From the IMG/VR virus record IMGVR_UViG_3300030098_002040, positions 5,151 through 64,002 of that record: a stretch of 58,852 nt of DNA, one strand, 5' to 3'. Under the pieces are notes generated by a model. The model made no database searches. It saw nothing but the letters and a program-made list of their open reading frames with translations, and was not told where the DNA came from. This stretch comes from a virus. Made by a program: the position numbers and the translations under genes. This document shows positions 1,066 to 17,200 of the stretch, piece by piece. Position 1 is the stretch's first letter; every line of letters starts with the position of its first letter.

Positions 1066-1423
1066 CGAGCCACTCCTCTCCATCATCAGGATTGTTCATA
1101 GCTTGTGTTACCAAAGCATCTTCAATTTCAGGGTATGATTCTAAGAATGCATCAGATTCTTCTGCATTTAATTCAAATTCTTTATAGATTACTCCATTAG
1201 CTCCCATAATAATACAAAGAGAAACTAAACCAGTTGTATGTATTTCCCAATGCGAGTCCCCATATTCTTTATCATATGGTTCGTATTCTAAAACAGAACC
1301 CTCGACATTAACATATATTTTTAATCCATTTGGATTCAATTGATCTATACCTAAGCTTGTATCAGAAAATTCGTATTCATAATTCGTTAGCCCTACTTCG
1401 TGTAGGTATTTAGATTTAAACAT
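1058..1423 (-). CDS. First gene after the early promoter, 121 aa unknown
   Basis: Encodes 121 acidic residues starting MFKSKYLHEVGLTNYEYEFS. It is the first gene downstream of the sigma70 promoter at 1444-1472, with GGAGGG seven to twelve bases before the ATG. The predicted transcript start falls almost on that ribosome-binding site, so the leader is very short. Nothing in the sequence identifies a family. It mixes beta-strand-like aromatic segments with an acidic C-terminus (NNPDDGEEWLDE). Promoter-proximal position makes it the most likely strongly expressed early protein here. Confidence 0.75.
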   Translation of the reverse strand: MFKSKYLHEVGLTNYEYEFSDTSLGIDQLNPNGLKIYVNVEGSVLEYEPYDKEYGDSHWEIHTTGLVSLCIIMGANGVIYKEFELNAEESDAFLESYPEIEDALVTQAMNNPDDGEEWLDE

Positions 1424-1443
1424 TAGTATATCCCTCCATATAT

Positions 1444-1472
1444 ATTATACCATAAAAAGATTAGAATGTCAA
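1444..1472 (-). promoter_or_regulatory. Consensus extended -10 sigma70 promoter
   Basis: On the minus strand, TTGACA (1472-1467) is followed after exactly 17 bases by TATAAT (1449-1444), preceded by TG-G as an extended -10. Both hexamers match the bacterial housekeeping consensus. The expected start is near 1437, placing the ribosome-binding site of the 121-aa gene at the extreme 5' end of the message. It would let host RNA polymerase transcribe the small-gene block leftwards. Confidence 0.9.
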
Positions 1473-1480
1473 CAAAAATA

Positions 1481-1612
1481 GGAGAGGTACTAGGCGACTT
1501 GGATCTGCTTAACTTATTTTTCAAAGTCAAAGCCTAGTAAAATTAAGTACTTGTTTCTGATCCTAAGTTCTTGAGATAAAAACCAGTACCTCTCCCTAAC
1601 CAGTAGCTGGTT
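1481..1612 (-). ncRNA. Highly structured intergenic RNA or attenuator-like element
   Basis: On the minus strand GGAGAGGTACT (1595-1585) is perfectly complementary to AGTACCTCTCC (1491-1481). Nested inside, ACTTAGGATC (from 1568) pairs with GATCCAAGT (near 1506-1498) with one bulge. A competing stem TACTAGGC/GCCTAGTA reuses part of the distal outer arm. A separate hairpin AACCAG-CTA-CTGGTT lies at 1598-1612. The outer stem is followed by a short U-rich run (TATTTTTG), immediately before the sigma70 promoter. It could be a small RNA with its terminator, an attenuator, or an operator; the pairing is visible, the role is inferred. Confidence 0.55.
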
Positions 1613-1626
1613 GCAACCCGGTTAAC

Positions 1627-1899
1627 CTAGGAATTATGCAACCGTGACTGTAGTTCTTGCTCTGCTCGTTCCTTCGTTTCAGGTCGAGCATGTTCCATGT
1701 TCAAGATATTCTGTAGCTGTCCTTCGTCCAGCTTACTGTAATCTTTGGTAGTAACCTCATCCAGAGTGAGTCCACGCTCCTCCAATACCGTCATGGCATT
1801 TAGCCCAGCTTCGCCGGACTTTGGATTCTTGGCGATGCCACGGAGAACAATGTCTCGGTAGCCCTTAAATTTATTCAATTGTTTCTCTAGTCTAGTCAT
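1627..1899 (-). CDS. Small charged protein, 90 aa unknown
   Basis: Encodes 90 residues starting MTRLEKQLNKFKGYRDIVLR, with ATGA overlap to the preceding gene. It appears largely helical, rich in Glu, Lys, Arg and Leu, with no cysteine or membrane segment. The base composition is less AT-rich than in the structural genes. It ends just before the structured element at 1481-1612, which may terminate or attenuate its message. Function is not recognisable. Confidence 0.7.
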   Translation of the reverse strand: MTRLEKQLNKFKGYRDIVLRGIAKNPKSGEAGLNAMTVLEERGLTLDEVTTKDYSKLDEGQLQNILNMEHARPETKERAEQELQSRLHNS

Positions 1900-2165
1900 A
1901 CGAGTTCCTCCTCCATTTCTTGGATAGCTTCTGGTAACCAGTGGAACTTGTTACGATAGCTCTCTGGTCTTGTTTCTTCAAACGAGTTAACGATGGATAT
2001 CGCAGCCTTCGGCTCGTCAACGAGCAGATGGTTTTTGATATAACTAACGGCTTCGCCAATGCAGTTAAAGACATCATCAGGACAGTCGAGTCCATAGCAG
2101 CCTTCTATATCTGAGTACACAGCGATAGCATATGGGTTTTGGATATCTATGATAATACGATTCAT
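1896..2165 (-). CDS. Small protein, 89 aa unknown
   Basis: Encodes 89 residues starting MNRIIIDIQNPYAIAVYSDI, preceded by a strong AGGAGG ribosome-binding site. It is the first gene after the hairpin-rich stretch at 2166-2537 and would be first served by any promoter there. The first half looks beta-rich, the second half helical and acidic (ending PEAIQEMEEELV). It is translationally coupled to the 90-aa gene by ATGA. No family is recognised. Confidence 0.7.
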   Translation of the reverse strand: MNRIIIDIQNPYAIAVYSDIEGCYGLDCPDDVFNCIGEAVSYIKNHLLVDEPKAAISIVNSFEETRPESYRNKFHWLPEAIQEMEEELV

Positions 2166-2219
2166 GATTGATCCTCCTTAGATCTTATTAGGGTTTATAA
2201 AATGATTTTTCAATCAACT

Positions 2220-2289
2220 AGCCGATCACAAGGAGCTGACATTGGTTTTCCATTGATGGTTGGGTTCCCAACAGCTCCGTTGGTCGGCT
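2220..2289. repeat. 70-bp imperfect palindrome with nested hairpin
   Basis: The two ends pair as AGCCGA/TCGGCT, then GGAGCTG/CAGCTCC after a small internal loop. The inside holds TTGGG-AA-CCCAA and CCAT-CA-ATGG hairpins. No gene-like frame crosses it convincingly. It lies between the mini-hairpin cluster and the 89-aa gene, so it would be in that gene's leader. It could be a regulatory RNA, a replication origin component or a protein-binding site. Confidence 0.6.
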
Positions 2290-2318
2290 TTGGGCAAATG
2301 TGAGAAAAAAGCAGGTGT

Positions 2319-2348
2319 CCCCATAAACACGGGGTTCCCCGCTAGGGG
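2319..2348. repeat. Tandem C4/G4 hairpins
   Basis: Two adjacent four-bp GC-only hairpins: CCCC-ATAAACAC-GGGG (2319-2334) and CCCC-GCTA-GGGG (2337-2348). They lie between the 70-bp palindrome and the mini-hairpin cluster. A T6 run occurs on the minus strand near 2305-2310, but it is about eight bases from the stem, so I do not call an intrinsic terminator. Confidence 0.5.
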
Positions 2349-2366
2349 GGCTAGAATAGCCGGAGA

Positions 2367-2510
2367 GCGAAGCGTTCCGCAGACGTTCCGAAGGGTCGTT
2401 CCGACCGGCGAAGCCGTTACACGAAGAATGAGGGTTGCCGAAGGCATTCCCCGCAGCCCGAAGGGAAGCATGCACACCGAAAGGTGAGGACGAAGGACTT
2501 CCCGAAGGGA
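2367..2510 (+). promoter_or_regulatory. Cluster of GAA-triloop DNA mini-hairpins (candidate virion-RNAP promoters)
   Basis: On the plus strand there are repeated short stems closed by C-GAA-G: GCGAAGC (2367-2373), CCGAAGG (2388-2394), CGGC-GAA-GCCG (2406-2416), TGCC-GAA-GGCA (2436-2446), CCC-GAA-GGG (2457-2465) and TCCC-GAA-GGGA (2500-2510). There is also one GAAA tetraloop (2475-2486). A five-bp stem with loop TTC (2394-2406) has GAA on the other strand. C(GNA)G triloops are exceptionally stable in single-stranded DNA, and N4 virion RNA polymerase uses triloop hairpins on the template strand. The plus strand is the template for the leftward early genes. Stems here are two to five bp, shorter than N4's, so the promoter role is a hypothesis. 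Confidence 0.5.
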
Positions 2511-2537
2511 GAGATGACTATATTATATAGCCATTAA

Positions 2538-2987
2538 TTACGCCCGTTGATAACGAGCGTCACCACAAACTCCATTACGGAACTTCATGGTTCGGGAACG
2601 ACAGTGAGCTTTGTTGAAGTCTCTCCAGAAATACGAGACAGTATCTGAAAAGTTTAGACCTTCTACCTCAAGATAGTGACTGTCGATAATATCCTCGTTA
2701 AAGATTTCATCATACCAGCACAACATACGGTAGTTGCCATTGTCCAACAAAGTCCAATAGATAGCATCAGTCTCAAAATACCGAAGACCGTCACTAACAG
2801 CATGGAAGGTGTATCCACGCCCTTGACATTCTTTAATATATCTTTTTAATTCACCAAGGCGAACAGTAAACTCAGGCTTGCCATAGGCAAAGACCTTTGC
2901 TGTGTCTGCTCTGTTGGTAAAATGAATAGAGACCATGCCACGGCTCCCCTTGCGGAGAACCACATTCTTAAAGCTTTGCTTACGCAT
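2538..2987 (-). CDS. Unknown protein next to RNA polymerase, 149 aa
   Basis: Encodes 149 residues from the ATG at 2987 (MRKQSFKNVVLRKGSRGMVS), chosen because AAGGAG lies seven bases upstream. An in-frame extension to 3074 would run through the terminator stem and is rejected. The protein has a basic N-terminus, a central aromatic-rich segment and C-terminal cysteines (CRSRTMKFRNGVCG). It is separated from the polymerase gene by a terminator, so it needs read-through or its own promoter. No family is recognised. A partner or accessory role for the polymerase is possible from position only. Confidence 0.65.
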   Translation of the reverse strand: MRKQSFKNVVLRKGSRGMVSIHFTNRADTAKVFAYGKPEFTVRLGELKRYIKECQGRGYTFHAVSDGLRYFETDAIYWTLLDNGNYRMLCWYDEIFNEDIIDSHYLEVEGLNFSDTVSYFWRDFNKAHCRSRTMKFRNGVCGDARYQRA

Positions 2988-3024
2988 AACTTTCTCCTTT
3001 GTCCGTAGACAAGAAACTAGGAAA

Positions 3025-3043
3025 CCTACAGACGTTCTGTAGG
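3025..3043 (-). repeat. Perfect 8-bp hairpin upstream of the 149-aa gene
   Basis: CCTACAGA and TCTGTAGG flank a three-base loop. It lies just past the polymerase terminator and about 40 bases before the 149-aa start codon. It may be a processing site or a second stop signal; no U-run follows. Confidence 0.5.
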
Positions 3044-3044
3044 G

Positions 3045-3077
3045 AAAAACTCTTGTCCCTCGGTAGAGGAACAAGAG
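3045..3077 (-). terminator. Intrinsic terminator after the RNA polymerase gene
   Basis: On the minus strand a 12-bp stem (3077-3066 with 3061-3050, one G-T wobble, loop TACC) is followed directly by TTTTT (3049-3045). It begins nine bases past the polymerase stop. Stem plus U-run is the canonical Rho-independent form. Confidence 0.85.
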
Positions 3078-3085
3078 CGATGGTA

Positions 3086-4885
3086 TCAGCCAATAGCTGA
3101 TGGCAGCTTATCTAGCAATGCTGCAATATCAAACTCTTCAACGCCAGCTCTTTGCGGTAGACGCTTATTGTGAGCTTTGCAGAAGTCACCTAGATAATCA
3201 TGGTTAGTGAACATCCAGATCAAAACCTCTTTGAAGATTTGACGTACAGTATCTACATAGGCTACAGGGACACCAAAAGAATCGTGGATAGTCGCAATAG
3301 GAATACCCAGCTTCTGACATTTGTTGACTACAAGAGTAACAATGACAGCATCTATAAGGTGTGTAAAACATGGAGCACACGCAGCTATCCTGCCCTGACC
3401 AGTAGTCATAGGACAAAGATTCTTACGAATCCTCTTGCGTTCATCATCCATTGTAAATGAAATATCAATATAGTCCTTGATAGACTCACTCCCTCTCTTG
3501 TGAGGAAATGGATGTATAATAATATTATTATCAAGTGGATGCACAAAAGAAAAGCAAGAATCTGTTTTCTTGTACCAACTACTAGCAGCACCTTTTAACG
3601 TACCAAGGTAATCCTTGATAGACGGAAAGCGATTGAACATAGCTTGCTGTAATGACTTAGCCAAATAAGACAGTTGCCTTATCTGATTAGGAACAGACAA
3701 GTCTGCCAAGTGTGACTTAAGACAAGACGCTGGAGATAGTGTGACTTCCTCAAGAGGAATACGACCCTTTTCGATTTGAGTAGCCAACCCATCGGTTGAC
3801 TTCGTATCGAGTAGAGACATGTCACACTCCTGTCCAAAGACAAGGATAGTTCCGATAGCACAAGCTAAAGCATCAGACGCTGTACCATACATGGTTTGAA
3901 TCCCAGTTGGCTTAGCGATTTCTTTTCTTAAGATCTTAGTATCAATCTCAGAAAGTGCTTTAGACCAAGAAGAGCCTTCATTTAGAAACTGATCAACAAT
4001 AGCTAAGTAGAAGTCTTCTTCTAGTATGGTAGTTAGCAAGTTCTTGTCTCGCATCATAAGAGACACTAAGAGTGGACCAGATGATTTAGTATCTAGTTGC
4101 ACAATGTAATGCTCTGCAAATGTTTGATCAGTACAAGCTAACCATGCACTATATGCTTTCCAAGATTCAGGTACATTATGAGTCGTGAATGAGGAAAAGT
4201 ACTTACCGTACTCTTCTTTTAAGAAGTCACGAGCTCTATCCCATTGCTCATCTGTAAAAGGATAAGCATCTGCAAAGCAGACGAGAGATCGATTAAGATC
4301 ATCACCTTGATGAGATAATATACCAGAGCCATTGTAGTATCTACCACGCCAGTCGAGAAAGACTGTGTTGTAGAATCTATCCCAGCTTTCAATCCTTTCG
4401 AGTTCCCTAAAGACAGGTTCAGTTTGATCAGACATTACCTTTTCTTTATTAAGATAAAGCATATGTTCGATCTCAGGATGAATGTCAAACGGTGTATTGC
4501 CGATATACGACAGGGCATCCTGCACTCTCTTAGGTTGAGGCACATTGCCATTGCGACTCACCACAGTACGGTGTGTCCCTGCAATATAAGGACGAGACAA
4601 TACATATCCTTTAAGCCTTGTAGGCTCAGGTAGCATTGTGTCGCCCGCTACGATAGCATTCTCGATAGACCGTAAATCTGTAAGATCTACATTCCAACCA
4701 TAGACTGCTACAGCAATCTGCTCTCGCATCTGGTCAACGACCTGATGGATAGAGCGGTCTGCTCTTCGTAGTTTATTGCGAATGGTAATGAACTTCTCAA
4801 GACCAAAAGTACTGAGAGGTTCCCGGTATCGCTTGGGTAGCTGTTGGATAGCTCCAAGTTGTTTAGATAGTGGGCTTATAGCCAT
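3086..4885 (-). CDS. Single-subunit DNA-directed RNA polymerase, short N-terminal type, 599 aa
   Basis: A T7-family RNA polymerase for later gene classes. Visible motifs are DWRGR (178-182), motif A around D265 (LDTKSSG...LMMRD), motif B K321-x3-K325 to Y333-G (Lys replaces the usual first Arg), and motif C IHDSFG with D535. All catalytic residues are present. Only about 178 residues precede DWRGR, against about 420 in T7, so most of the T7 promoter-recognition N-terminal domain is missing, as in the N4 middle polymerase. I start at the ATG at 4885 because AAGGAG lies seven bases upstream. A 61-codon extension to 5068 reads through strong hairpins and looks non-coding. A terminator follows directly. 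Confidence 0.93.
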   Translation of the reverse strand: MAISPLSKQLGAIQQLPKRYREPLSTFGLEKFITIRNKLRRADRSIHQVVDQMREQIAVAVYGWNVDLTDLRSIENAIVAGDTMLPEPTRLKGYVLSRPYIAGTHRTVVSRNGNVPQPKRVQDALSYIGNTPFDIHPEIEHMLYLNKEKVMSDQTEPVFRELERIESWDRFYNTVFLDWRGRYYNGSGILSHQGDDLNRSLVCFADAYPFTDEQWDRARDFLKEEYGKYFSSFTTHNVPESWKAYSAWLACTDQTFAEHYIVQLDTKSSGPLLVSLMMRDKNLLTTILEEDFYLAIVDQFLNEGSSWSKALSEIDTKILRKEIAKPTGIQTMYGTASDALACAIGTILVFGQECDMSLLDTKSTDGLATQIEKGRIPLEEVTLSPASCLKSHLADLSVPNQIRQLSYLAKSLQQAMFNRFPSIKDYLGTLKGAASSWYKKTDSCFSFVHPLDNNIIIHPFPHKRGSESIKDYIDISFTMDDERKRIRKNLCPMTTGQGRIAACAPCFTHLIDAVIVTLVVNKCQKLGIPIATIHDSFGVPVAYVDTVRQIFKEVLIWMFTNHDYLGDFCKAHNKRLPQRAGVEEFDIAALLDKLPSAIG

Positions 4886-5262
4886 ACCTAACTCCTTCCG
4901 CCAATAGGCAAAAGAAACCAAAGAAACTTCTGGAAACGCTCCAGAAGTAAAAAGTGCTGGAAGCAATAACTCCTCCAGTACCGTCTCCCGCCATCTTCTC
5001 TTCCATGTCTTACGCACAGTAAGACGGCACGGCGAGGATGAGCAGTACGCCCATCTTTGGTAGCTCACGGCTAAGTAAGCTACCTAAGACAAGCACAGCT
5101 TAGGGGGGTATAGGGGGACATTCCGTAATCCCACTAATACAACCCTAGCTGTATATTCGTGACCCCTAGTCGATTTTCCTAAGTATACCTAGTATATAAT
5201 ATATATAATATATACCTATAGATAAACTATAGTTAACTAGGGTCTACCTACCCTTAACCCAA
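4886..5262 (-). promoter_or_regulatory. Structured non-coding leader of the RNA polymerase gene
   Basis: This 377-base stretch between the giant gene and the polymerase start has no convincing gene. On the minus strand it holds, in order, a GGGTTAA.../...TTAAC stem (5258-5231), an AT-rich tract with two CTATAG copies and TATATA repeats (about 5190-5235), and GGTAGCT/AGCTACC (5084-5059). Then come GTCTTAC-TGTGC-GTAAGAC (5025-5007) and a nine-bp hairpin ACTTCTGGA/TCCAGAAGT (4948-4926). The AT tract is a plausible promoter location, but no clean hexamer pair is visible. The hairpins may regulate polymerase expression. Confidence 0.5.
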
Positions 5263-8200: not shown

Positions 8201-11200
8201 CTATCTGTGTCCAATTTTCCTTCTTCAGTAAATCCTTTATCGTAATCTGCTGCTTCTTGTTCTAAAATCATTAATTCATTATAATTGTGTTCAAAGCTTT
8301 GAATACCTTCAGGATTTTGTAAATTACCAGTAGTGTTTTCTAATCCACTAGCAATCATTCTAGAAAATAAAACAATTGGAATAGCATTATTTAAATAAGT
8401 TCTATCTGACTGAGTAGTATTAAAACTAAAGATACCATTAGTAGCAAGTTTATTTAAAGTTAAATATATACTTGGAAAATAAGCTAAGTATTGTTCTGTT
8501 CCTTCTAAAACATATTCTCCTCTATGCTCTCCCATTTTTTCAAATGAATCTGCTAAAAATGTTTTTAAAATATCTAAATCACCTTGTTCATTATTATTTA
8601 ATAAACTAGTAATATAATTTCTAGGTATTAATAAATCGTCTTTAATTTTACCATGTCTAGAATGAGTAATTTCTCTTTTTGAATTATTAATTATTTTGCG
8701 ATTATTTAAAACAGTTCTTCTATCTTGACCAAACATATTTTTATAATCTATTTCAGATATTTGTTTTTCAATATGTTCTTTTTCTTTTAACTTATTAACT
8801 AATTCAGCTCTCTTTTTATCTTTTTCTTTTAGATCTTTTGCATTGTTCATATCATTTTCTATATCTCTTAACTCACGCTCTATATTCTCAAGGTCATCTA
8901 TTAACGTCTCAAAAGAAGTACCAGTAGTTTCTGTTTTAGTAATATTATCTATTTGTTCTTTTGTCAGAGGAGAACTATCTCTAAATTGAAATAAAGAAGG
9001 AGATTGATCACCTAATGTAAGAGATTTTGGATTTAAAAAGTTATACATATTCTCTGCATTAGGATGTCCAGTAGAAACTTCAGAGGGGGTTCTAGAAGAA
9101 ATAGCCCTATGTATTCCTGCTCGTTGATTAAACCCGTAACTGTTTTCTACAATTTTTTCCATCATCTCATATGCTTTTGGTGTTCTTGTTTTAAATCTAA
9201 ATAATGCATCAGTTATTGTTTGTAAGTATCTTCTAACTGAACGAACAATTTTACCTACCATTGATTCAACATGTTTATCAGGAACTATAATAGATTTATC
9301 ATGAGTTACATCTAACATAACTCTATGAGACACATACAAAGCAGCCCATTCTTCTGGATTATTTTGATAGAAAGCAACAAGAGATTGTAATTGTTCTCCA
9401 CTATACTTAGAGTACTTAGGAAGAGAAGTTACAAAGTCTCGTATAGAAACTTGTCCTTCATAAGATTTAATCCACTCAACAACACTTATCCAATGTGCTT
9501 CGTCTTTTCTAATAAATCTTTCTACTCCCATATGTCCAATGGTTTCGTGAAGAATAATTTCTACCAATTCTGTATTATTATCAACATTAGTAGGATCAAC
9601 AATTATAGAAAACTTGTCTTTCTTAACACCAAAAACTCCAGACACTCTATCCTTAGTTCCTATTTTATACAACGGTTGAGTTGCAATTTCTAAATCTATA
9701 TCGTTAAAGAACTCAGGATTCATTCTTGCTAAATGAGCAAAAGTTATTCTTAACATTTCTTTTTGTTCATTGTTTAAATTAGAACTTTCTATAGTTTTAT
9801 TTAATTCTAAAGCAGTATCATTTGATTTAAATGTTTTATTAAATTGTTTAAAATCTTTTAAAGACCACAAATCAACATCGTCATCTAAACCTCTTGATAA
9901 ATCTAAAGGATTATAAATACCATGACTATCTAGTCCCTCTTGTATAGCTGCTGACAAAGCTAGTTTAGCAGCAATTAATTGAGAAGGACTTGGATCTTTA
10001 ACACCAACAATTTGTTCTAAGGCTGTTTCAAATCCAACTAAATTTTCTAACTCATTAACTTCTTCGCCTATTAATTTAGAACGAACTTCAGAAGCACTGT
10101 TTCTATCTAACCATTGCCTAGCACTTCTAAATAATATTTGTGCTTCATTTAAAGCTGACTCTTGAAAATCTATCTCTGTATTTAATTCTTTATAAAATTT
10201 CCCAGCCTTGCGTGTGCGTGATTTAACGATAAGCCCTCTTAATTCGCTTGCAGTTAAATCTTTATTTAAAATATGCAATGCCCAAGTAGGAAACATATTA
10301 CTATCTACAGTTAATAAGTCACCTTCAATATCATATTCAGTTCCGTTTAAATCTTCTAATACTTTTTTAAATAACTCTACTGTAATAGCCCCATCTTCTT
10401 CTGTATATTCTTTAATTCGTTTATTTATTTCTTCTTTACTTGTTATCTTATTTAATTCTTCTACTGTATTTTTAACATCTTCATTATCTTTCATATATGT
10501 AGGAACATGCTCAGAATTATTTATATCTATTTCTCCTTTTAATCTAGTTGTTAAAAGATGAACTACCCATCCCCCTACTTCTGTTTTTTCTTTTTTAAGA
10601 ATATTTTTTGCGTAATCATTTAACTTTCCTTTATCGCTTTTATTTGCTTTCATGTTCTTAAAGATAGTCCTAAGATCAAAGCTTCTCATTGCTATTCGCA
10701 AAGCTAAATCATATTCACCGGTAAGGTTGCCTAATTGTACCCAATCAAAGTGATTACCATTAAAAGTAACAACCTTATATCCTTCCTTTTGTGCTGCTTC
10801 AACTCTTTTTAAAAATGCTTTTAAGTTTTTACCATCAGACATTTTATTTTCTTTTCGATCAGAGTAATGTTCAGCAATGCTATATACCTTAGTTATTTTA
10901 CCATCTATAACCCAATCAGTTTCAATATCTATAGCTAATATTTTATTATTTTTTAACCATCCATCATAATCTAATAGTTCAGGAATATTATCTACACCCT
11001 TTAATCCTAATTCTTTTAAAATAGATTTAAAATTATCTACATTAGTTCTTTGTAAAACTCCTATATTATTAGAATCACTTATATGTTTTTCTAGATGCTT
11101 AGTCATTTTATTTAAAGGATTAAAATTAAGTTTATTAATTTGTTCATTTAATTTATTTACATTTGGTTCTATTTCTGTAAATGTTTTATAATCTATATTT

Positions 11201-14200
11201 AAAACAGACGCAGCAAATATTTTAGCATCTTGGAAATTTAATCCATGACTATCTTGAACTTTTAAAGCTAGAGATAATACTCTATTAGTATCATTTGGAT
11301 TACTAGTTATTTCATCTAATACTCTAGATAATCTTGTATTGCCTGATTTAGTAGCCGATGTTTTCATAATATCAATAGCTGAATAATAAGATTTTGCATA
11401 AGCAGTATCAAAATCCATTCCTTTTAATCCACCTAATTTATCTATATCAATAGTTTTATGCCGTTCGTTTGGATCAAATGAACTACTTCTTCTATCGTCT
11501 GTAAGAGTATAAGAATCTAATTCAGAGTCTTCCATAATTTCAAATGCTTTTAAAAGTATTTCATTTTTCTTTCTAAGATCAGTTTGAAACCCAGCTTCTA
11601 AACTTTCATGCAATGAACGCTCTGTACCTAAATATGGTTTTTGAGTAATAGACCTATCTTCAATTTGTCGCAAAAGAGTTGACTTAGTATTAATTAACAT
11701 CTCTTGCAGCCCTTCACGAGTAAGATGATAGGTAGGTGCTCCAATAACTTTACCATGTAGCAATGGGTATATACTGCCCCACATTCTTTTAATTTTGCCT
11801 TCATGCGTAGGATCAAGAACCATTCTTCCTCTTGTTTCAGAATCAGGATCTAAATAAATTGTAAAGTTTCTATGATGCTGAATTGAAGCTTCTTCAATTG
11901 CTTTAAAGAATATATCAGATGCCATGTTTCTAATAACTGGATCAGGATCATTGTACATTCTTTCTAAATCCCACCAAGCTAATAACTGTCCTTCTGGTAA
12001 TTTACTTTCGAGTTCACGAAGATAAGCTCCAATTTCACTATCTTCTTTTTTCTTAGCTTGTATATATTCATTTGTTTTAGATATAAGGAAATGCTCCATC
12101 ATAGCCACGCCAGTTTCTAAATGGTGAACAGCTACCGGTCCTTCTACAGTTGCTACGACTTCTTTCTTTTTAAAAGCTGTGTCTTCATCTAAAGCTACAA
12201 GATGTCTTGGGGCAGCAGTAAAAACTCTTGGATCTCCTTTTTCAGATCGTTGAGATATTACCTTAGCAAGTTGAAGATAAGACATAGCATCGGTATCTAT
12301 TGCATCTCCTAGTTCTGGTAAAAATACATCTAACTCTCTAGGATCATAAGTAGTTGTTTTTACTTCATGAGCAATAGACCTCTGTGTGAATAGTTTATCA
12401 TACCAAGTCATTCTTATTTCTCTACTTCTTGCTGTATAATCTGCTTCGCTTGTAGTTCTTAATCCTTTTACAATTCCTCTAGTTTGACGTAAAGTGTCTG
12501 ACATAATTCTATCATGATCCCATAGAATCCATAATCTAGCCCATTGTTTATTTTTTATTTCAGTAAAATATCCTCGTTCCATAGCCCAAGGAAGTACAGA
12601 CTCTTTAAAGTTTCGCATTGCTTTGTAAACTTTTTGTTCATTAGATTCGTCACTAAAAACATTACTAATAGGCTCTGTAGCAGGAGGACTAGCTACAGGA
12701 AGTGTATTAGTATCGAAAGGATGTGATCCAGTTAAAAGACCTGATACAAATAAATTTAAATTATCATCAAGTTTATTATCAGCAAGTTTATTAAAATTAT
12801 CTATTCTCTTATCTTGTTCTTTAACTTTATTTTCAAAGAATTTTTTTCTTAAGAACAAAGATCCTTTGTCTTGCATAAGATTTCCGGGAGATCCCATTGT
12901 AGGTCTAAATGAAGAGATACCAGCCGGAACTTTTGTTGTAATCTCAACCTGATCTTTTACAGTTCTTCTTGACCATAATGGTTTATTATTTTCATCAAAC
13001 CTACCGCCAAATTCATTCTTAGTAAATTGATCTCTACCAATTTCATTTGATAGTTCACTAGGATTATTCCAAAAATTATTTGATCGTGCTCTTGCTTGAA
13101 CAGTATGATCTGATTCAGCTTGCCATTGTGCAAAGTAATCAGCCATAGTATATTCTGGTATAGCTAACATAGCAGGTTCTAATTGAGTTGAAACTCTAAG
13201 AGCTAAATCTATAGCAATAAGTTTATTTACATAATCTCGTTTATTTCCAACTCCTTCAGGAAATCTATTACCTAATGTTTGCCAAATACCGTATGGTTTT
13301 TCTTCGCTTCTATAGCTACCAAAGGGACTTGTATAAGGACTCCTAGCTCCAGCAAAAGGAAGCTGCAATCGTCCTGCTGCTGTATCAATCCCAAACTCTT
13401 GGAATACATGGTATTGCAATAGTAGCCCACCCATTAGCCAATTTTCTTCAACATGAGCAGGATCTAATCCTGAAGCTTCCATAATTTTTTTAGTCATCTC
13501 ATCGTATTCAATTCTAATTGGCTGTGCATTCTTTTCATTTAAAACTCTAAGTAATGGCATTTCTTTCCATGCTTCATTAAACCCTGTTAATAATCTATAT
13601 ATTTCAGAATAATGTTTATTAAATATTTCTGGATTATCTAAATCAGTTTCAGTTAAAGGTCTATCAACAGAAGGATGTCTTTGTGATTTTAAATATTCTT
13701 TAACATTATTAATTCTTTCTTGAGTATCTTTTCTAATAATTTCTTTAAGCCTTGCTTTTTCTTCAGGTCTTCCTTGACTTAAATAATCTGACATTTCTTC
13801 TACATAGTTCTCATGAGCTTGAATTAAATCTCTTCTTTTTTTACCAGCCTCTTTCATATCATCACCATAGACAGCTAACCAGTCTGCTTTAACTAATTCT
13901 TCTTGTTTTGCATAATTTTCTAAAATATTAATTAGCTCTACTCTTTCAGTAGCAGTCATACCTAATCCTTCAAGAATTGTATTAGTTGCTCCTTGAACTT
14001 CATTAATCATAGTTGCTCTTAATGCAGCCCCGCCTTTATTTAAAAAGGTTGCCCATACTTTAATATCTTTTAGAGTAATGCCGTTAGCTTCAGCTTGTTT
14101 TGCCCAATCAGCGTTTTGTTGCCAGTCTTTAACTAATGCATTTGCTGTTCCTTCTAAACCTGCCCAATATAATTGAACCATAGTAGGCTTCTTCATAAAC

Positions 14201-17200
14201 TCTCTAAATAATTTAACTCTATCTGTAGTCTGGTCGTTATTTTTTAAATCTTCTAATATACCTTTAAAATCAAATAACTCGTTTAGTTTTTGTAAAGACT
14301 CCAATGATTCTGGGTTCATATCTATATGCGATTCAATATTTTGTAGTGCTGACTCTAATACATACTTGCCAACATTTAAATAAACATCATCTTGAGTATA
14401 CCCTAATTTATCATATACTAAATTATCTAGAAATTCTTGTATTTCTTTATTTGATCTTTCGCCTGAGATTAACATAGATACAGTAATATGTTGACCAGAA
14501 AAACTATGATCCCTAACTCTTTGATATGAAAATATATTATCTATTCCTATTGTTTGTGCTTTTTCTTGTCCTAATTCTAAAGACCTTTTAGCAAAACCTT
14601 CATAGTTTTTATTCATAAATTCCCAAGCAACGTGTTGAAAGAATCCAGCAAAAGTTAACATCCCAGATGCCATACCCGGCGTAGCTCCTTCTGCTATTCT
14701 TTTATTTAATCTACCTCCCACACTCTCTTCATCAAATGACTCATCTCTTTTTATAAATAAAGGCTGAGGATTATATTTTTCATCAGCTTTTGCTTTTTCA
14801 TCTTTAGTTAATTCTGAAACAGATTTACCTAACTCTTCTGCATATTTTTCTCTAGCTTCTACTTGAGTTTGAAATCCAGTAATAATTCCATCAACATAAA
14901 ATCTACCATCATGAATTAAATTTAACCCTATAACAGGGAAATCTAACATAACTTCCATTACCATTTTTTGCCATTGTTCAAAATTAGTAATAGTTTCTCC
15001 CGGAGTTCTATTAGATATCTGAGGAAGAAAATCAAATCCTAATTTTATTTTACCTACAATTTCTCTACTAGGAATATAATATTCTCTGAAAGCTTCTTCT
15101 TTTTGTTTAGCCGTTAACTCTTTATCTTTATCTAGCTTTCTATCTTTTATATATTCTTCTATAGCTCCTTCTTTAGTAGTTTTTCTTTTTAATAAATCAT
15201 TTATAAAATCAGTTACCTCATCAGGTGTCATTGCTTCAATTGTTTTTAAAGAGTGTTTCATTCTATGAGTAACTAAGGCTTCTTCATAGTTTCGTCTTAG
15301 ATTTTTTGTAGAGAAAGGCATATCATGTCTAACACTTTTAGGTTGTAGTTTAGAACTAATATTCGGCTGTCCTCTGTCTACAAGATCTTGAGGGCTATCA
15401 GGATCAGTTTGATTTTCAATATTTGTACTGATATTTCTTCTATAAGTTGATACTTCATTTCTTCTAAAGATTGCATCAGACAATGCTCTGCCAGCCTCTT
15501 CGGCGGGCATCCAATCTAAAGTACCATCCCCCATATCTGTTTCATTTTTAATTCCATAATAAAGTTTTGTAGTTTCTAATAATATATCAATAACTCTATC
15601 AAGACTTTGTGTTGTTTCATTACTATCAATGATTTCTATATACAACTCTTTAATTCTAGAGTCAATAGTTTTAGGACGAGTAGTAACATAGTCTTCGTAT
15701 ATATTAACAAAAGTTTCTAATAATCTTTGTTTATTAATTCCTCTTGCTTGCTCTATAAAATTATCTTTAAATATTTCTGTATATTCTTTTTCTGTGACTG
15801 ATCTATTAGCGTCAACATCTGTATCTCTATTAAATCCTGCTCGCAATCTATTCTCTTTAGGTATTGTTTTAACATAATCTAATAGACCTTGATGTAATTC
15901 TTCAGCAAATTTTAATTGTCTTCTATAGTTAGTGGTGCTTTTATCTAAAGATTCTACTCTACCTTTAGCATCAACTACTGCTCTTTCAAGTTTGCTTTCT
16001 ACTCTAGCAGAATAATTATCTCCTAGTTTTTTAGATATTGATAATAAAACAGTAGTAAGTTCTTCAACATCAACAATAACATCCATATAATCGCCCTCAT
16101 GGATTGTGTTATTATCTGTTTTTTCTCTTCTATATAATTTATCTGGTGCTAATCGTCCATCTTTACTTGCTTCAATAGCTCCTGCTTGTTCAAGAATTAC
16201 CGGTCTAATTCCTTCTAATGCCTTTGATCCTTCTGGTCCTAGCTCTGAACCCATATGAAATATAGGGTGATTAAAATTTATATTTCCTAATCCTGCTTGG
16301 TGTAACATAGCAATAACTAAACCAAGATGAGAATATTGTCCGTTTTGATTTTTTAAGGTTTGTAATAGACGAGCAGCATCTAAGAATCTTTCTGCATATT
16401 CTCCAATAGTATCTTCAGTAATAACAAAAGGAATACTATCTTGTGGCGGTACTGGGCGTGAAGTCTCTGCTTCTGTTACTGATCTTTTTAATAAAGGCTG
16501 ATCATTTGCAGTAAACTCACCAATGCTTACATAGTCGTGGACAAGCTCATTAAAAGCATTCATAGCTTCGACATCAATTCCAGATAATCTAGCTATCATC
16601 ATATTTATTCCTCTATGTCTATTAGAGGTTTCGTTTCTCCACATTGCAAAATCTGTTATCATATCTCTAGCAGTATTCATATCAACAGTATCTTCCATTT
16701 TTAAATCAGGATACTTTTCTTTTAAAAAACTGTCAATATAATTAAAACTTATATAGCTATCTTTAACATATGTTTTCCAAGTATATAAGTCTATAGTTTT
16801 TAATTTCTTTTTTCTAGCATCATCATTTATTTGGACTTTGCTTTGTTGTGCTGATCGTACAACATATCTATGATATGCAAATTGTTGAAGACCAGATGAG
16901 AAAAGATCTTCTTTTGGAATAAGCCTAGAAGCTGCTACTTCTTTATTTAAAGACAATCTATTTATATTTTTTCTTAGTTCACTAATTTCTTTGAACGGTC
17001 CTAATTTTTCTAATTCTTTCTCTTTCTTTTGGATTTGATTTAAAAGTTTATTAAATTCTTTTCTTGTTTTAAAATATTGTTCTAAATTTTCTTTTAATTC
17101 TTTTTTATTTTTTATTAATTCTTTCTTTTTATCTTCTAATATTTTTTTACTTTGATTACTTGGACTATCTATAGCTTTAATAAAATCTTCTATAACTTGA

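Follow-up and report, generated by a model that had tools for sequence, protein, structure and literature searches.

A template-strand array of GAA-loop mini-hairpins at the late/early gene junction of an uncultured T7-like podovirus

An array of mini-hairpins, most of which carry a GAA loop on the template strand, was found between the late and the early genes of an uncultured T7-like podovirus of bacteria. The array is real, and it is probably functional. By analogy with T7 and its relatives, we tentatively favour the reading that it is a multiplied form of the T7-type hairpin of the concatemer junction/terminal repeat. The T7-group terminal repeats appear to be a closer positional precedent for it than the early promoters of phage N4, with which the preliminary description of this DNA had compared it.

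The array may bear on the manner in which T7-type phages duplicate their terminal repeat, a hairpin form of which has been reported during T7 infection (PMC4281155). In addition, a natural array of 7-11 hairpins, in which the loop and the strand are kept while the stems change, would provide a handle on the identity of the folding strand and on the role of the hairpins.

Composition and genomic setting of the array

The window (the whole stretch of DNA analyzed, 58,852 nucleotides) corresponds to bases 5151-64002 of a virus record of 64,002 bases. Its genes run leftward and encode a primase/helicase, a DNA polymerase, a ribonucleotide reductase, a head-tail adaptor, capsid and tail proteins, a terminase and an endolysin, and these are followed by a giant protein of 5199 aa, a divergent single-subunit RNA polymerase (RNAP2) and a small gene (Table 1). 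A clearly T7-like polymerase of 814 aa (RNAP1) is encoded to the left of the window (L002 1023-3467). The phage thus has two separate single-subunit RNA polymerases, besides the giant protein. The known phage records contained no DNA match to the early region (1400-5100), and no terminal repeat was found in the 64,002-base record.

Table 1. Features of the array, its surroundings and related sites (positions refer to the window unless another genome is named)
Feature	Position	Strand	Remarks
Array of GAA(A)-loop mini-hairpins	2349..2513	+ (template strand of leftward genes)	TTC loops in leftward RNA; syntenic array in L012
GGCTA-GAA-TAGCC hairpin	2349..2361	+	5 bp, A-T closing pair; absent from the preliminary description
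GC-GAA-GC hairpin	2367-2373	+	
CC-GAA-GG hairpin	2388-2394	+	
GGTCG-TTC-CGACC hairpin	2394-2406		TTC on + strand; overlooked in the preliminary description
CGGC-GAA-GCCG hairpin	2406..2416	+	one of three 4-bp C(GAA)G hairpins
TGCC-GAA-GGCA hairpin	2436..2446	+	
CCC-GAA-GGG hairpin	2457..2465	+	
CACC-GAAA-GGTG hairpin	2475..2486	+	
TCCC-GAA-GGGA hairpin	2500..2510	+	
L012 syntenic array	L012 4785-4980	template strand	11 CGAAG
Small gene directly upstream of the array	2538..2987	-	149 aa from ATG, 178 aa from TTG; homologue in L012
RNAP2, divergent single-subunit RNA polymerase	3086..4886	-	600 aa from ATG with Shine-Dalgarno at 4886; 660 aa if GTG 5068
Part of giant protein (5199 aa total) with polymerase-like motifs	14155..14916	-	aa 1983-2236: LIHDG (aa 1983), D2118 SFSG, REFMKKPTMVQLYWAG (aa 2220)
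Terminator-type hairpin (AGCGGG..CCTGCT) and T tract, proposed concatemer junction	2305..2343	-	includes CACCTGCTTTTTTC (2317 to 2304), class-II-pause-like
Conserved structured element between terminator and first small gene	2217..2289	-	RNA fold z -5.2; L012 5049-5121, z -6.5
Small gene, 89 aa	1896..2165	-	Shine-Dalgarno; start region conserved in L012
Small gene, 90 aa	1627..1899	-	59% identical to L012 protein
Perfect sigma-70 promoter	1444..1472	-	TTGACA-17-TATAAT plus TG extension (12/12); ahead of AT-rich early genes
atcGTCCCC-TTC-GGGGACc sites	L110 2181, 5146, 13912; L113 6091; L130 5834; L131 4329, 9955		

The pentamer CGAAG starts at positions 2368, 2389, 2409, 2422, 2439, 2459, 2491 and 2503, which accounts for eight of its 28 occurrences in the whole window; the eightfold recurrence noted in the preliminary description was therefore borne out, with all copies within 2368-2507. 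Dinucleotide shuffles of 2345-2515 contained a mean of 0.9 CGAAG, and the observed number was reached by none of 2000. The five GAA hairpins with stems of at least 3 bp compare with a shuffle mean of 0.1, and this value was likewise reached by 0 of 2000. The GC content of the array (61%) stands out against the 34.5% of the window. With 2-bp stems admitted, the earlier tally, six hairpins with a GAA loop and one with a GAAA loop, is correct; the list lacked the 5-bp hairpin at the left end of the array and overlooked two hairpins with TTC on the + strand, one given in Table 1 and the other being GCG-TTC-CGC. Two of the eight CGAAG copies (2422 and 2491) lack an ordinary stem, although tandem G.A pairing is possible at 2491. 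When the left and right flanks of 18 distinct sites from two phages were compared, 63 Watson-Crick cells were counted against 30.9 expected, a value reached in 0 of 5000 permutations.

Leftward from the array, a distance of 31-50 nt leads to the CACCTGCTTTTTTC tail of a terminator-type hairpin, whose RNA form would be AGCGGG-GAA-CCCCGU..AUGGGG-ACA-CCUGCU-UUUUU; a similar fold is present in L012. The motif CACCTGCTTTTTTC also occurs at the late/early junction in L012, L015, L016, L017, L078, L081, L111, L120, L142 and G010. RNAP2 lies before the motif in some relatives and beyond it in L078 and L081, which indicates that the motif, and not RNAP2, marks the boundary. The 73-nt structured element that follows the terminator (2217-2289) shows a compensatory stem change from A-U to U-A in L012 and resembles an RNase III-type site.

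The array had been described as preceding the early genes. It does lie upstream of them, but two small genes (2165-1627) and a sigma-70 promoter (1472-1444) intervene before the main early genes. L012 has two perfect sigma-70 promoters downstream of its array. Because of these promoters, early transcription by the host polymerase, as in T7, is the default assumption. Just before the early promoter lies a non-coding tract (1475-1627) with the long closing stem GGAGAGGTACT/AGTACCTCTCC, and a non-coding tract with a 14-bp stem occupies the same place in L012 (5840-6450); both are possibly non-coding RNAs.

The array in related phages

About 80 relatives were gathered by scans with RNAP1. The nearest one that covers the region is L012 (RNAP1 79% and RNAP2 54% identical), and this was the sole relative in which an array was found. 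Within 206 bases, the L012 array has 11 CGAAG and eight GAA hairpins whose stems reach 3 bp or more, and all of these are on the template strand. The loop and the strand are the same as in the window, whereas the stems are mostly different. The two array sequences hardly align, in contrast to the adjoining 129 bases, which are 78% identical; the loop, the strand and the place have therefore been kept, while the stems turn over. Conservation in related phages, which the preliminary description had named as a check, thus holds for the loop, its strand and its place in L012, but not for most of the stems, nor for the other relatives of the set, which are without an array.

We also considered a series of GAA runs in the distant relative L017, where seven direct CGAAG repeats without stems lie at the same junction (3296-3370). 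They were rejected as a form of the same array, being stemless and of opposite strand sense. A scan of viral contigs for CCGAAGG..CCGAAAGG..CCGAAGG matched 32 contigs, none of which had a comparable hairpin array.

Comparison with T7-type concatemer junctions

In both T7 and T3, C(TTC)G hairpins with a stem of 6 bp or longer are confined to the terminal repeat, where both copies carry them in sense orientation, as in the array. T7 and L012 share the identical core AACCTTCGGTT, of which L012 has three copies. In five phages of the T7 group (Yanou, Pila, vB_Yep_15, HZ2R8 and C2) the TTC hairpin is kept, with changes in the stem and the closing pair, while EG1 and KP32 have a TTT loop in place of TTC, likewise upstream of CTATCTGTT. 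The T7-group hairpin lies inside the terminal repeat, 70-140 nt before CTATCTGTT, the concatemer-junction signal. This signal is annotated as the concatemeric junction in 13a, and in T3, 13a, Yanou and Pila its start precedes by one base the position at which the terminal repeat is annotated to end. The same test found no junction hairpin in 13a, JB01, Ebrios, K1F, SP6 and gh-1 (the terminal repeat of gh-1 is annotated).

The array is placed between the last late gene and the first early promoter, as a T7-type junction requires, and its TTC triloops, read in the sense orientation, precede the junction motif by a distance that is within the limit of about 140 nt seen in the T7 group. The motif CACCTGCTTTTTTC itself resembles the class II signal ATCTGTTTT, which is known from phage concatemer junctions (PMC11617373). 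Compared with the class II sequence ATCTGTT (followed by a T run), ACCTGCTTTT differs at two positions; here it sits on a hairpin, and it is conserved in ten relatives.

The likeness to T7, T3 and other Studiervirinae thus extends to the C(TTC)G triloop, its gene-sense orientation, the combination of a variable stem with a constant loop, the late/early junction and a place upstream of a polymerase pause/termination signal, which is putative in the present phage. There are also differences: the T7 group has one hairpin where 7-11 are present here, the array stems are shorter and GC-rich, and the signal is CTATCTGTT there and CACCTGCTTTTTTC on a terminator hairpin here, with the link between the array and a genome end drawn by analogy. 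TTC hairpins at the junction are absent from most of the phage's own family. A further parallel is offered by the Yersinia fPS phages, in which 11-34 variable repeats lie between the terminal repeat and promoter P1 (PMC5923468). As may be the case here, variable short repeats are clustered beside genome ends, but they were described as sequence repeats and not as fixed-loop hairpins (PMC5923468).

The array lies where the late transcription unit ends, with the last late genes on one side and the terminator-type hairpin on the other. If it is a multiplied junction hairpin, the CACCTGCTTTTTTC tail of the terminator may act as a pausing or termination signal for the phage's own RNAP1 at the junction between genome units, and the interval would be the genome end. 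During the cutting of the concatemer into unit genomes, the C(GAA)G strand would become single-stranded and fold back, so that DNA, and not RNA, would be the working form. The very stable C(GNA)G mini-hairpins could cause turn-around or blockage, or could mark the DNA for recognition by the packaging enzymes, and the outcome of such a processing step would be a duplicated terminal repeat and a protected end.

The ends of the available contigs were also compared with this placement. The near-complete contigs of relatives (at least 58 kb) tend to stop in the interval that corresponds to this junction: 7 of 17 do so, at 4.6-6.2 kb upstream of RNAP1, which for an interval chosen post hoc gives a Poisson p of about 3e-5, and two of these seven end shortly after RNAP2. 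The overlapping ends differ by 1-10%, which makes strain variation a possible alternative cause of the breaks. For two contig starts the distance to the motif was measurable, and both are situated about 1 kb past it, not at it.

Two other explanations have to be weighed against a junction hairpin. The array may act at the RNA level, as the 3′ untranslated tail of the late transcript, in which hairpins with UUC/UUCG loops protect the transcript end or aid pausing before the terminator. We regard this as rather unlikely. The array is situated directly upstream of the terminator-type hairpin in a tract with further structured RNA-like elements on its flanks, and the whole region has an RNA fold z of -2.6, but the antisense strand folds equally well (z -2.5), no T tract follows any hairpin of the array, and the TTC-centred perfect palindromes fit a triloop and not the register of a UUCG tetraloop. 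Rfam at gathering thresholds gave tRNA as the sole match, leaving the array unmatched. Among the relatives, C(TYC)G hairpins of at least 5 bp lie on the gene-sense strand in 17 cases against 5, as would be expected for cUUCGg-type RNA loops; this bias is nevertheless neutral as to the folding strand, since it is compatible with template-strand DNA and sense-strand RNA alike. The non-Watson-Crick stem positions, when read on the GAA strand, comprise 26 G.T/G.A against 5 A.C/C.T (expected share of G.T/G.A 0.63; binomial p 0.009, post hoc). Because of this tilt, which speaks against folding of the RNA, the GAA (template) strand is mildly favoured as the folded one. The units may, on the other hand, be functionless, having arisen by template switching at stable mini-hairpins during replication or from a short mobile palindrome, a view that seems to us distinctly unlikely. 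It would account for the tandem, near-identical units of 12-13 nt within the L012 array, for the words of 11-13 nt that are common to the array and the two downstream small genes in opposite orientation, and for the occurrence of the array in one small lineage only. However, in both phages the palindromes are confined to one intergenic site, one loop and mainly one strand are kept despite the changing stems, and a GC-rich tract is maintained within a window of 34.5% GC.

The N4 comparison and the giant protein

The preliminary description proposed that the hairpins are N4-like early promoters. According to this proposal, extruded template-strand C(GAA)G hairpins would recruit a virion-carried polymerase (the giant protein or RNAP2), which would start leftward transcription. 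We consider this unlikely for the array. An N4 promoter is a template-strand hairpin with a C-G closing pair and a loop with 5′ G and 3′ A, whose central purine is at -11, and the N4 virion RNA polymerase (vRNAP) contacts -10G, -8G and +1C (PMC4496689). C(GAA)G on the + strand conforms to the loop rule, as had been stated, and the likeness extends to a giant late protein with polymerase motifs, encoded in the same genome. When the scan used for the present record was applied to N4 as a positive control, the first 8 kb yielded three template-strand hairpins and no more; their stems measure 5-7 bp, and one of the three has a GAA loop. Judging by where they lie and by their sequence, we regard them as the early promoters P1-P3. 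In contrast, the short stems, already named as the main weakness, do not exceed 4 bp in the C(GAA)G hairpins of the array, which lacks the N4-type stem of 5-7 bp, and the whole 64-kb record yielded no C(GNA)G hairpin whose stem reaches 5 bp. In the two arrays, -8G is present at 4 and +1C at 3 of 19 sites, as at random positions; the sites share no conserved flank, and the CCAWAA context is missing. The 7-11 copies are in tandem, the early genes are served by perfect sigma-70 promoters of host type, and the relatives that carry RNAP2 or the same giant-protein motifs have no array. The loop and strand rule and the motifs of the giant protein thus stand in favour of N4-like promoters, while the stems, contacts, flanks, array-free relatives, sigma-70 promoters and the vRNAP profile (see below) argue against them. 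If the array did serve a virion polymerase, hairpin promoters would exist outside the N4 family, beside a giant protein with unusually ordered polymerase motifs.

Isolated hairpins elsewhere in the family deserve separate mention. In the junction and early regions of the relatives, C(GRA)G hairpins of at least 5 bp lie on the template strand in 12 cases against 1. A 15-base hairpin of the C(TTC)G type, with a 6-bp stem and neighbouring bases that are also conserved (atcGTCCCC-TTC-GGGGACc), is found in several places in L110, L113, L130 and L131 (Table 1), one copy being located about 20-30 nt before the RNAP1 gene, and L118 and L120 have CACAC/CACGC hairpins followed by GGTGAAAA. These elements could be promoters, RNA hairpins or terminators. 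With their recurring flanks and template-strand C(GAA)G form, they leave promoters as a possible interpretation for the family, and to a lesser degree for the array of the window. No obvious RNAP1 promoter was recognized among the repeated 12-mers of the genome.

RNAP2 was rejected as a counterpart of N4 vRNAP, its profile matching the T7/mitochondrial RNA polymerases and, weakly, the N4 RNAPII subunits; its predicted structure (pLDDT 50) was too poor for use. The giant protein had been credited with N4-like polymerase motifs, and this stands in part: motifs A and B are present at N4-like spacing, with a K-x-P motif B, but a C-like HD precedes motif A and the profile match is at noise level. 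The giant proteins of seven phages (the window, L200, L201, L206, L207, G004 and G005) have in common HD, D-x4-G and K-x-P-x-M-x3-Y, which were assigned as a motif C-like element (QD in one giant), motif A and motif B, respectively. In an alignment of the seven that spans about 1100 residues, most members show 15-18% identity and 15 columns are invariant, among them those of the HD and motif A aspartates and of the K, P, M and Y of motif B. An alternative assignment of HDGRFY as a DxxGR motif was discarded, since the relatives show [ILV]HD[SA] at that place.

In the canonical enzymes (RNAP1, RNAP2 and the N4 relatives) the HD follows motif B, whereas in the giants it lies 227-262 residues before motif B, with no HD within 600 residues after it. 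This order suggests that the giants carry a circularly permuted polymerase domain, apparently arranged C-A-B, which we treat as a lead only. The N4 vRNAP profile scored no higher on the giant protein of the window than on shuffles, the Pfam N4_RNAP_helical match was below threshold, a search of solved structures with the seven-giant profile did not find a polymerase, and a profile scan from two giants added no new relatives. It is improbable, in our judgement, that the giant is a virion RNA polymerase with a permuted palm (C-A-B) and that the array doubles as its entry site and as a genome-end structure; were it so, one DNA element would couple the formation of the end to the first transcription of the next cycle. 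In another part of the giant protein (aa 3311-3400; window about 10663-10932) we observed an RNase H-like/DnaQ-type exonuclease motif, with a Pfam RNase_H_2 match above the cut-off, which is also present in the giant protein of G003.
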